From assembly GCA_943329845.2 (NCBI GenBank), contig CALQFM020000018.1:1-59795 (forward strand): a stretch of 59,795 bases of DNA. Direction: 5' to 3'. Below the pieces are notes generated by a model. That model had not been told where the DNA came from, searched no databases, and saw only the letters and a program-made list of their open reading frames with translations. The position numbers and the translations under genes were made by a program. Source of the stretch: Candidatus Kuenenia stuttgartensis (lineage in GTDB: Bacteria > Pseudomonadota > Alphaproteobacteria > SMXS01). Below, in pieces: positions 19,815 to 43,172 of the stretch (positions are counted from its first letter, which is position 1; every line of letters begins with the position of its first letter).

Positions 19815-20462
19815 CTAGAGACCGAGTATACGTTTCGCGAAGCGCGGCGTAATGGGGCGCTTTTCCTGCAGGGCGGCCCGGTCGAGCCGGAAAACCGCCT
19901 CGCCCAGCGCGGCGAAGGAACGGTCCACCCTGGTCAGGATATAATTCAGCAGGTCCGGCGTGACCGCAAGCTGCCGGTCGGCGAACAGCTTGACGGTTAC
20001 CGCCGCCAGCAGGGCGTCATCCGGTTCGGACAGCGACGCCGCCGGCGCTGCCAGCAGCCGAGACAGCAGGTCCGGCAGGGCTATGCCCCAGTCACGCACC
20101 GGCGTCCGACCGGTGATCAGCAGGCTGCCGCCTTGCTCGCGGGTCCGATTGAACAGGTGGAACAGCGCGGTCTCGTCCCCGATGTGGCCGTTGACGTCGA
20201 GGCAGACGGCGCCCGGCTGACCGCTTTCGCGCAGATGGGTATCCACCGTTCCACCCTCGTCCCAAGCCGCACCGGCGCGCTGTTGCCAGACGCGGGCCAG
20301 GTGGGTCTTGCCGCTGCCGGGCGGACCGTACAGCACCATGCAGGGATAGGGCCATTCCGGCCAGCGGTCGATCCAGCCGACCGCGTCCCGGTTGCAGGAC
20401 GCGACGAGAAAGTCCTCGCGGCCCATGGCCGGCCGGGCTGGAAGGTCGAACGCGAGCTGCAT
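19815..20462 (-). CDS. hdaA: HdaA-like regulatory inactivator of DnaA
   Basis: 215 residues. It has a sliding-clamp-binding N terminus (MQLAFDLPARPAMGREDFLVA), Walker A YGPPGSGKTHLA and a AAA+ core related to DnaA domain III, but no domain IV, as in Hda/HdaA. In alphaproteobacteria HdaA stimulates ATP hydrolysis by DnaA after initiation, with the replication clamp. The expected acidic Walker B reads GAVCLDVNGHIGDE, which is slightly unusual. It begins two bases after the DUF2066 stop, an operon pair typical of the class. Confidence 0.9.
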   Translation of the reverse strand: MQLAFDLPARPAMGREDFLVASCNRDAVGWIDRWPEWPYPCMVLYGPPGSGKTHLARVWQQRAGAAWDEGGTVDTHLRESGQPGAVCLDVNGHIGDETALFHLFNRTREQGGSLLITGRTPVRDWGIALPDLLSRLLAAPAASLSEPDDALLAAVTVKLFADRQLAVTPDLLNYILTRVDRSFAALGEAVFRLDRAALQEKRPITPRFAKRILGL

Positions 20463-20464
20463 GG

Positions 20465-21547
20465 TCAGCGGCGCGGCGACACGTACCAGTCCCCGTCGCG
20501 CTGCGCCAGGTCGAGGCCGTACTGGACCATGGCGGCGGTCAATTGCTCCGGGGGCACGGTTGCGGTCATGGACAGCAGCGCCCGGTGGCTGGCGAGGCTG
20601 ACGATGAGCGGATCCTTGATGATGGACGCCTGTTTCAGCCGCTCCTTGACGGTAATCAGCTCCTTCAGCGACGACAGGTCGAGAATGGCGAGGATCGGCG
20701 TTTTCACCTGGCCGGCCATGGCGTTGCGCTTCCAGCTATAGGTCAGGTTGTCGCCGACGTCGCGGGCGGCCCGGATCAGCATGGCATCGACCGTCTCACC
20801 CGCCAACTGGGCGACCTCGATACTGCTGCTCTGCTCGCCGGCGACACCGTACTGGCGGATGCTCACCGTCAGCTTGGCCTGGCCGCCGCCGCCGCGCAGC
20901 GTGGCGACCGGCACGACGACCTCGCTGGTGCCGTAACGCCGGCCCAGCGCCTCGACCCATGGTCCACCGCCCTGCATCACCTCGCCGACGCCGGGACCCA
21001 TGCCGAGGTCGCCGGCGCGCGGCAGGGTCAGCGACAGCAGGTTTTCCTGCCAGTCCTGGCGCGCCCAGGCGTTCCACCAGGCATTCGACGCACTGATCTG
21101 CGGTCCACCGCTGTCGAATACCGGCAGCACGATGATGGGATTGGCCGGCGCTTCGGCGAACGGGATATTGTAGCGGCCGAGCAGCGAGCGGATGCCGCCG
21201 GGACTGAACGCGACGGTCACCTTGCCGATATAGCGCGTGCTCGAGTAGCGCTCTTCGTCGAATTGCAGGCTCTGCACCAGCCGCGACACGCTGTTGCCGT
21301 CGAGTCTCGGCAGCCTGCCCCGGTCCTCCTTCAGCGTCATGCGGCGCAGCAGCAGGTCGAGCGCGCGGGACTGGGCTTCGCCGATGGCGATGTTGCGCGC
21401 GCCGGCTGCCGTATCGGCGGTGACGTCGACCGGGACTTGCCTGACCTCGAATGAATTGAAATACGTGGCGGCGCGGACCGACCCGCCTCCCATGATGACG
21501 CCCACGCACAGCAGGATGGCGGCGACGGCGACAGATTTTGGGCGCAT
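20465..21547 (-). CDS. DUF2066 exported protein
   Basis: 360 residues from the ATG at 21547, which has GGAGGGG 1-7 bases upstream and is preferred to ATG 21568. A TATAGT lies just before 21568, so the transcript may begin about there. Signal peptide [20 protein letters not shown]. The mature part begins [42 protein letters not shown], the DUF2066 pattern. Function is unknown; the family is nearly always upstream of hdaA in this class. It is divergent from purM. Confidence 0.87.
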
Positions 21548-21671
21548 GCCCCCTCCGAAAATTCCCATGGGCGTACTATACCAAGGCTGGCCCAAGCGCC
21601 CCACAGAATATGGGAGTCGATTTCTCGCCTACAAATCCTTAAGTTCCCGCCGAAACAGCCCCGGAAATGCC

Positions 21672-22729: not shown

Positions 22730-23380
22730 GTGCGCTTCGCCACCCTGATCTCCGGCCGTGGCAGCAACATGCAGGCACTGCTCGAAGCCTGCGCCGCGCC
22801 GGGGCACCCCGCTACGCCCGCCATCGTCATCTCCAACAAGGCGGACGCCGCTGGTCTGGATGTTGCCCGCTCCCATGGCGTGCCAACGCAGGTCATTAGC
22901 CACAGGGATTATCCGTCGCGCCACGATTTCGATGAGGCGCTGCACCGGGCCATCGTCGACAGCGGCGCCGAATTGATCTGCCTGGCCGGCTTCATGCGGC
23001 TTCTGGAGGCCGACTTCGTCAACCGCTGGCGCGACCGCATCCTCAACATCCACCCGTCGCTGCTGCCCGCCTATCGCGGCCTGCACACCCACCAGCGGGT
23101 GCTGGAGGATGGCGTGAGGTTTTCCGGCTGCACCGTGCATTTCGTGCGTCCCGAGATGGACGAAGGCCCCATTGTCTTCCAGGCCTGCGTCCCGGTCCGC
23201 GACGGCGACACCGAGGACAGCCTGGCCGGGCGCGTGCTGGCGTGGGAGCACAAGCTCTATCCCCTCGCCCTGCGGTTGATGGCCGAGGGCAAGCTGCGGG
23301 TCGAAGGCAACACGGTCCACATCGACGCGCCGCTGGCGCTGCAGGACGGACTGATGAATCCGTGTCCCGAGCCTGGCTGA
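22730..23380 (+). CDS. purN: phosphoribosylglycinamide formyltransferase
   Basis: 216 residues. It transfers formyl from 10-formyl-THF to GAR, step three of purine synthesis. LISGRGSNMQALLEAC binds the phosphate; the catalytic Asn and His lie in LNIHPSLLPAYRGLHTHQ and the Asp in RPEMDEGPIVFQ. Start GTG at 22730, just after purM; no clear Shine-Dalgarno sequence, so coupling to purM is likely. It converges on ndk. Confidence 0.95.
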   Translation: MRFATLISGRGSNMQALLEACAAPGHPATPAIVISNKADAAGLDVARSHGVPTQVISHRDYPSRHDFDEALHRAIVDSGAELICLAGFMRLLEADFVNRWRDRILNIHPSLLPAYRGLHTHQRVLEDGVRFSGCTVHFVRPEMDEGPIVFQACVPVRDGDTEDSLAGRVLAWEHKLYPLALRLMAEGKLRVEGNTVHIDAPLALQDGLMNPCPEPG

Positions 23381-40964: not shown

Positions 40965-41423
40965 ATGGACTACCAGGTCGAGAAGGCCGGCGCCGAGCTG
41001 TCGCCGTCGCAGATTGCCGCCCAGTTGGCGTGCGCCAACGTGCTGACGGTCTTCATCCACCTGATCGACGAGAACAGGTCGCTCGAACTCGTAGACCTGT
41101 TCTCGGAAGATGGCGTCATGGAGGCAGTGCCCCATGCCTTCAACGGCCGCAAGCAGATCCGGGAGTTCCTGGCGTCGCGGGCCGGCGGTGCGCCAACCCG
41201 GCGCACGGTCCATGTGCTGTCCAATTCCGCTTTCCGGCACGTGTCGGATCGCGAGGTGCACTGTACCTCGGTGATGACCGTCTTTGCTTATGACGCGTCA
41301 CAGTCGGCGGCCAACCTGATACCGGACTCGCTGTGCAAGCTGGAGGACAGGTTCGTGAAGGATCCGGACGGCGTCTGGCGGTTCGGCCATCACCGACGCA
41401 GTTTCATCGTCCAGAACGGCTGA
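40965..41423 (+). CDS. SnoaL-like/NTF2-fold protein
   Basis: 152 residues with GGGAG before the ATG. The pattern of a leading helix (LSPSQIAAQLACANVLTVFIHLIDENR), LVDLFSEDGVMEAVPHAFNGRKQIREFLASR, TRRTVHVLSNSAF and a final strand PDGVWRFGHHRRSFI is the SnoaL-like nuclear-transport-factor-2 fold. Such proteins act as isomerases, hydratases or ligand binders; the substrate cannot be predicted. Single-gene unit between the rplI terminator and dnaB. Confidence 0.78.
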   Translation: MDYQVEKAGAELSPSQIAAQLACANVLTVFIHLIDENRSLELVDLFSEDGVMEAVPHAFNGRKQIREFLASRAGGAPTRRTVHVLSNSAFRHVSDREVHCTSVMTVFAYDASQSAANLIPDSLCKLEDRFVKDPDGVWRFGHHRRSFIVQNG

Positions 41424-41546
41424 GTCGCTTCACGAGAGAAACTCCCGAAAAGTTCGCTCGGCCGGTGAACCCGGGGTGCCTCGATGGCGTTTGAGTCCGG
41501 TTTCACCGTGTCCGCCACGGAACGCTGACCGATCACCTGTCCCCGT

Positions 41547-41566
41547 TTTTCCACACCTGTGGATAA
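41547..41566. promoter_or_regulatory. paired, face-to-face DnaA boxes upstream of dnaB
   Basis: TTTTCCACA (41547-41555) on the plus strand and TTATCCACA (the reverse complement of TGTGGATAA, 41558-41566) on the minus strand, separated by two bases. The second is a perfect match to the strict DnaA box; the first has one mismatch. Together they make a near-palindrome about 107 bases before the dnaB start. Confidence 0.6.
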
Positions 41567-41672
41567 ATCCCCTGTGTAGGAAATCAAGTTCCTGATATGT
41601 TCACGAGACGGGGTGCCTGCGGTCATGCTCAATAGCGAGCCTTCCGCTCCAGCTAACCGAGGACAAGCGCCC

Positions 41673-43172
41673 ATGCCGTCAGGATTCCAGGAAAGCGCCC
41701 AGCTTGCCGGCTTCGACTCGCCGCAGGGCTATGCAGGGCTGCCGCACAATCTGGAGGTCGAACAGGCGTTGATCGGCGCGATCCTCGTCAACAACGATGC
41801 CTCCAACCGGGTGTCGTTCCTGACGGCGGATCATTTCTTCGACCCGCTGCACCAGCGCATCTACGCCACGGCCATGCGGCTGATCGAGCGCGGCCAGCTG
41901 GCGATCCCCGCGACCCTGAAGACCTATCTGGAAGCAGACGCGGGCCTGAAGGAGGTCGGCGGGCCGCAATATCTTGCCCGGCTGGCCGCCGCCGCGACCT
42001 CGCTGCTCCATGCCGAGGAATATGGCCGGACGATCTACGACCTGTCGCTGCGCCGCCAGCTGATCCTGATCGGCGAGGAAACGGTACAGAACGCCACCGA
42101 CGGCGATACCGAGAACCCGGCCATCCACCAGATCGAGCAGGTCGAGCAGAAGCTGTTCAACCTGGCCGAAAGCGGTCAGGCGGAAGAAGGTTTCAAGCCG
42201 TTTTCCCGTTCGCTGGGCGTCGCCATCGAGAACATCGAGGCGGCGCACAAGCGCGAGGGCAAGCTGACCGGGGTTTCCACCGGCATGCGCGCCTTGGACG
42301 AGTTGCTCGGCGGCCTGCACAGGTCGGACCTGATCATCCTCGCCGGCCGTCCGTCCATGGGAAAGACGGCGCTGGCCACCAACATCGCCTTCAACGCGGC
42401 GAGGCGCTGGCAACGCTCCAAAGTGGAAGGCGAGGATCCGGTGAAGGGCGGCGGCGCGGTGGTCGGCTTCTTCTCGCTGGAAATGTCGGCCGAGCAGCTG
42501 GCGGCCCGCATGCTGTCCGAGCAGGCCGACATTCCCTCGGAAAAACTGCGCCGTGGCGACATGACCTCCGACCAGTTCCGCGCCCTTGTCCGCGCGTCGC
42601 AGGAAATCGAGGACATCCCGCTGTTCATCGACGACACGCCCGCCCTGTCGATCGCCGGCGTGATGTCCCGCGCCCGGCGGCTGAAGCGGCAGCACAATCT
42701 GGGCATGGTGGTGATCGACTACCTGCAGCTTGCCCGCCCGTCCGGCCAGCAGAAGACCGAGAACCGGGTGCAGGAGGTTTCCGAAATCACTCGTGGACTC
42801 AAGGCCTTGGCAAAAACACTTAACGTTCCGGTGCTGGCCCTGTCGCAGCTCAGCCGCTCGGTCGAACAGCGCGAGGACAAACGGCCCCAGCTTGCCGACC
42901 TGCGCGAATCCGGCTCGATCGAGCAGGACGCCGACGTGGTCATGTTCGTCTACCGCGACGAGTACTATCACGAGCGCCGCCAGCCCGAGATGGGCACGCC
43001 CGCCCACCAGGAGTGGCTGGAGCGCGGCGAACGCATCCGCGGCGTGGCCGAGGTGATCATCGGCAAGCAGCGTCACGGCCCCACCGGCGTCGCGCGCTTG
43101 CACTTCACCAAGGAAACCACCAAGTTCGGCGATCTCGCGGAAATGGACCACTTGCCGGATCGTACGTTTTGA
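41673..43172 (+). CDS. dnaB: replicative DNA helicase
   Basis: 499 residues from ATG 41673, chosen because GAGGA sits 9 bases upstream; ATG 41625 is the alternative. N-terminal helical domain (GLPHNLEVEQALIGAILVNN, LHQRIYATAMRLIERG) and RecA-like motor: AGRPSMGKTALATN (Walker A), FFSLEMSAEQLAARML, MVVIDYLQLARP (Walker B), LSQLSRSVEQREDKRPQL and SGSIEQDADVVMFVYRDEYY. It unwinds DNA ahead of the fork. No intein. The stop overlaps the next gene. Confidence 0.97.
   Translation: MPSGFQESAQLAGFDSPQGYAGLPHNLEVEQALIGAILVNNDASNRVSFLTADHFFDPLHQRIYATAMRLIERGQLAIPATLKTYLEADAGLKEVGGPQYLARLAAAATSLLHAEEYGRTIYDLSLRRQLILIGEETVQNATDGDTENPAIHQIEQVEQKLFNLAESGQAEEGFKPFSRSLGVAIENIEAAHKREGKLTGVSTGMRALDELLGGLHRSDLIILAGRPSMGKTALATNIAFNAARRWQRSKVEGEDPVKGGGAVVGFFSLEMSAEQLAARMLSEQADIPSEKLRRGDMTSDQFRALVRASQEIEDIPLFIDDTPALSIAGVMSRARRLKRQHNLGMVVIDYLQLARPSGQQKTENRVQEVSEITRGLKALAKTLNVPVLALSQLSRSVEQREDKRPQLADLRESGSIEQDADVVMFVYRDEYYHERRQPEMGTPAHQEWLERGERIRGVAEVIIGKQRHGPTGVARLHFTKETTKFGDLAEMDHLPDRTF

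Follow-up and report, generated by a model that had tools for sequence, protein, structure and literature searches.

The replicative helicase gene dnaB of Caulobacter crescentus belongs to the DnaA-dependent set of genes and carries predicted DnaA boxes upstream (review PMC8203912, citing Hottes 2005); control of dnaB by DnaA is already known from this organism. The SOS box of Caulobacter is GTTCN7GTTC (PMC9578287, PMC12700426). Joint action of DnaA and LexA has been described for Escherichia coli uvrB, recN and dinJ, where both proteins repress (PMC6015884). Moreover, a double DnaA box of E. coli has been modelled in tandem (PMC11317965). A putative SOS box was reported for dnaB of Mycobacterium tuberculosis (PMC8151990). 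Leptospira dnaB, for which no SOS box is listed, was not induced by UV (0.61-fold; PMC3789691), which counts against an SOS-inducible dnaB. The main texts of the alphaproteobacterial SOS papers PMC12700426, PMC6473078 and PMC13384398 contain no mention of dnaB; in the Caulobacter paper among them, PMC12700426, the gene name has 0 occurrences. Searches of open-licence papers showed no report of LexA control of dnaB in Alphaproteobacteria.

Here we describe the dnaB leader in a 59,795-nucleotide stretch of alphaproteobacterial DNA, called the window. The leader contains a face-to-face pair of DnaA boxes, TTTTCCACA and TTATCCACA, 2 bp apart, and next to it a LexA-type box, GTTCCTGATATGTTC (Table 1). 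As in the Caulobacter DnaA regulon (PMC8203912), predicted DnaA boxes precede dnaB in an alphaproteobacterium. In contrast to Caulobacter dnaB, a putative LexA box stands beside them, none being mentioned in the available part of that review. The presence of predicted DnaA and LexA sites at one promoter resembles E. coli uvrB, which differs from dnaB in being a repair gene and in its repression by DnaA (PMC6015884). A putative LexA site at the replicative helicase gene is shared with M. tuberculosis, where the phylum and the type of box differ and dnaB is partly PafBC-dependent; DnaA boxes at its dnaB are not described in the available part of PMC8151990. The comparison widens DnaA control of dnaB, reported for a single model species, into a predicted pattern that recurs in many families of the class. 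In one lineage, the replicative helicase gene adjoins putative sites for the initiator as well as for the damage repressor.

Table 1. Sites and genes of the window discussed in the text (positions counted from the first letter of the window).
Feature	Position	Strand	Basis
Outer DnaA box TTTTCCACA	41547-41555	+	one mismatch
Inner DnaA box, perfect, TTATCCACA	41558-41566	-	box search
LexA-type box GTTC-N7-GTTC, GTTCCTGATATGTTC	41588-41602	+	pattern search; 21 bp downstream of inner DnaA box
Possible extended -10 element TG-A-TATGTT	41593-41601	+	by eye, within LexA-type box
dnaB, replicative helicase	41673-43172	+	Pfam DnaB_C E 4e-103, DnaB E 1.3e-24
HdaA-like gene	19815-20462	-	TIGR03420 and Pfam Hda_lid

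The dnaB gene lies downstream of a SnoaL-like gene and is followed by mlaE, an ABC ATPase gene and a gene which we take to be RadA-like. On the alignment of leaders, ATG 41673 is probably the start codon, with AGGA at 41660-41663 before it; GTG 41613, from which the reading frame is open, and ATG 41625 are open alternatives. Neither a sigma-70 consensus promoter nor, on the + strand, a terminator-like site was found in 41300-41750. The DnaA boxes sit just upstream of the possible extended -10 element, and the LexA-type box overlies it. Concerning other regulatory motifs, a search of the leader region (41421-41680) found no CtrA sites, and GANTC only at 41422 and 41493.

The DnaA sites together with the adjoining putative LexA site suggest that helicase supply may respond to both replication timing and DNA damage. 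We consider it fairly probable that in this lineage DnaA activates dnaB and LexA represses it in part, which makes the gene SOS-inducible. The dnaB leader would then be a two-input promoter. Immediately before the core promoter, DnaA would occupy the perfect box together with the weaker box on its upstream side and would most likely activate dnaB, so that helicase supply tracks the initiator level. LexA bound to the box over the likely -10 would cause partial repression. Upon DNA damage, RecA-driven cleavage of LexA would release dnaB and provide more helicase for fork restart. In this scheme we infer that both proteins bind, which way DnaA acts, where the promoter lies and that damage induces the gene. 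Activation by DnaA from upstream combined with partial repression by LexA appears to be the simplest reading; DnaA may instead repress dnaB, since both proteins repress at E. coli uvrB, recN and dinJ (PMC6015884). We incline slightly to the broader view that in this lineage the SOS regulon has come to include the replicative helicase, which is still under DnaA, one promoter summing initiation and damage signals and supplying extra helicase for fork restart.

Two collections of dnaB loci were compared. Leader positions count back from where the DnaB match begins rather than from the start codon, and the DnaA box counts cover the 260 nt before that point. Set A comprises 80 loci on named contigs. 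Set B comprises 54 leaders from 60 genomes, nine from the family of the window and the rest one per family. One set B 'leader' (G039) is mostly coding, since its DnaB match begins at query residue 137.

The LexA-type box, which adjoins the DnaA boxes and was omitted from the earlier note, fits the alphaproteobacterial LexA box GTTC-N7-GTTC and looks like a LexA site. The exact pattern is present in seven of the nine dnaB leaders of the family: in all seven from two genera (six of the window's genus, one of the sister genus), with 21-22 bp separating it from the inner DnaA box, and in none of the two from a third genus (G008, G009), both of which have lexA. In the seven leaders, 11 of the 15 columns of the box are invariant, including all eight GTTC letters, and the surroundings are less conserved (8 invariant columns in the 70 nt downstream, 5 in a 36-nt stretch farther upstream than the outer DnaA box); shared ancestry accounts for part of this conservation, because the seven leaders are related. 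Within these seven leaders the putative LexA box appears conserved to a degree comparable to the DnaA box. None of the 45 leaders that set B holds from other families has it (two of the 45 are short, one is largely coding). The absences, like that of a consensus promoter, weigh against the proposed scheme. In set A, exact GTTC/GAAC-N7 repeats precede dnaB in 4 of 76 leaders outside the family, three from Microvirga and one from Rhodovulum steppense; we did not count the repeats of these four as the same element as the box before dnaB in the window.

The Microvirga repeats (GTTCTTGCTTTGTTC or GTTCTTGATTTGTTC; L086, L088, L092) lie between dnaB and a frame identified by eye as rplI-like, some 300 nt upstream of where the DnaB match begins, and are followed by an inverted repeat and a T run resembling a terminator. 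Repeat and terminator-like run possibly belong to a short damage-regulated transcript.

Genome-wide, the exact GTTC-N7-GTTC pattern has 96 matches as compared to 31 for the reversed control, so that many of the matches are not LexA sites. An A/T-rich spacer, counted by eye, is found in 16 of the 96, a group to which the dnaB site belongs together with the sites of lexA, dinB and an imuA-like gene. The box in its dnaB form precedes the SOS genes lexA and dinB of this genome as well as the imuA-like gene (70 bits, below the NCBIfam cut-off of 150), a DEXH helicase gene of the ligase-associated type (truncated where the locus ends, and below its cut-off) and genes for a PA0069-type radical SAM protein, an S24-type repressor and a DUF2147 protein; recA carries a version with one letter changed, as judged by eye. 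Examination of 12 of the 15 other A/T-rich sites gave six with a recognised gene and six without, so the form alone is no proof of an SOS gene. The lexA gene is preceded by GTTC-N7-GTTC in 17 of the 19 loci examined (of 20, L206 being left out), including 9/9 in the window's family. As would be expected of a member of the LexA regulon, the dnaB leader has this pattern near its predicted promoter in the form seen at the genome's own lexA. The Caulobacter SOS box shares the form of the boxes of this genome, including A/T-rich spacers (PMC12700426, PMC9578287), and one Caulobacter box, GTTCttgttatGTTC, is identical to a box found here.

These data bear on an alternative that we regard as unlikely, namely that DnaA acts alone and GTTC-N7-GTTC arose from conserved core-promoter letters or by chance in one young lineage, without LexA binding. 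The second half of the box does overlap the possible -10 element, the box is limited to two genera of one family, and the excess of 96 matches over 31 leaves many that are not LexA sites. However, the first GTTC is located in the promoter spacer and is invariant in 7/7 leaders, and the A/T-rich spacer sets the dnaB site apart with those of lexA, dinB and the imuA-like gene.

Concerning DnaA, the other input of the proposed two-input promoter, perfect boxes occur in 21/80 dnaB leaders of set A and 13/52 of set B, where shuffles average 0.08 and 0.03; allowing one mismatch, the figures are 55/80 and 27/52 against 1.97 and 2.18. Two set B leaders were left out of this comparison as too short, and the counts of set A are not independent, since it is rich in Rhodobacteraceae. 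In either set, no 9-mer is shared by more leaders than TTATCCACA. Of the 43 set B leaders from outside the window's family, 9 contain a perfect box and 18 contain one with up to one mismatch; none at that threshold was found within the 260 nt of the other 25, which counts against the proposed scheme. DnaA boxes before dnaB are therefore common in the class and not universal, and the predicted face-to-face dyad is one local form of this class-wide pattern.

The perfect and the one-mismatch box that the earlier note had described as a dyad upstream of dnaB are both there. As to conservation, the perfect inner box is kept, with 8/9 columns invariant in the seven nearest leaders, and so provides, along with the class-wide enrichment, the conserved box close to the promoter that would be expected of a DnaA-regulated promoter. 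The outer box is weakly conserved (3/9 columns). The tight face-to-face form is found in 3/7 of these leaders, and the dyad geometry was ruled out as a conserved unit. Among 128 dnaB leaders (4 duplicates dropped; L022 and L134 are probably one genome), 70 box pairs were counted as compared to 0.8 in shuffles, among them the inverted 11-nt pitch in four leaders (three of the window's genus, one Aureimonas), an inverted 21-nt pitch in 7 and a tandem 22-23-nt pitch in 10. A perfect box with a weaker one 2 bp away recalls the double DnaA box of E. coli (PMC11317965), which is modelled in tandem, whereas the boxes here face each other; the pair was rejected as an E. coli-type double box (tandem, 2-3 bp), its spacing being 2 bp but its orientation inverted. 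DnaA regulation of dnaB, proposed in the earlier note, is supported by the class-wide comparison and by the Caulobacter review (PMC8203912), and is mostly already known; the face-to-face dyad does not hold as a conserved feature of it.

Placement upstream of dnaB might also be accidental. Closely spaced DnaA boxes are found in sites of the datA or DARS type, in which a DnaA box cluster is accompanied by IHF or Fis sites, and the boxes could be such a titration or nucleotide-exchange site with no role in the transcription of dnaB. The known close spacing in such sites and the differing geometry of the pairs among lineages speak for it; the recurrence of boxes before dnaB in unrelated families and the place of dnaB in the Caulobacter DnaA regulon (PMC8203912) make it very unlikely. 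That the dyad arose by chance is still harder to accept. Single boxes (up to one mismatch) are indeed at chance level in the window, without enrichment (5 against a shuffle mean of 3.37, with 31/100 shuffles reaching 5), but the dyad (up to two mismatches) occurs at a single place in the whole genome of 3,684,334 bases, where perfect TTATCCACA totals 4 and TTTTCCACA 8, the inner box is conserved in the genus, and boxes are enriched before dnaB across the class. That the leader transcript folds into a hairpin or terminator here, as the inverted repeats of the two halves might suggest, is hardly credible given the poor conservation of the outer half and the + strand of 41300-41750 without a terminator-like site.

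The earlier note had also placed HdaA in the window. An HdaA-like gene is present about 21 kb from dnaB, as indicated by matches to TIGR03420 (E 2.9e-32, 112.8 bits, below the model cut-off of 194.8) and to Pfam Hda_lid (36.7 bits, above the cut-off of 27); the PF00308 search returned dnaA only and did not find this reading frame. No DnaA box with up to one mismatch was found near the HdaA-like gene (19815-21604) in the window search, the nearest being at 22896, unlike Caulobacter hdaA, which has up to six (PMC3193534).

The combination of a DnaA box and a LexA box was found at 26 places in 23 of 385 Alphaproteobacteria genomes, as compared to 10 places for the reversed control. At dnaB it is present in 5/5 genomes drawn from the window's family and, among the 385, only in that family; around the other 21 places, flanks of about 1.5 kb were retrieved and contained no DnaB. 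Three joint DnaA and LexA-type sites (L235, L240, L241) are situated upstream of a gene of the DNA polymerase III alpha type (G341), where dprA begins (G363) and in the gap between moeA and lexA (G031), so that further repair genes may have joint DnaA and LexA sites. In the genome of the window, two of the three perfect DnaA boxes outside the dnaB leader, L007 (G000:C36:15975-15983) and L002 (G000:C7:38581-38589), are placed one directly before uvrC and the other before a tRNA-Ala-like sequence, read by eye.
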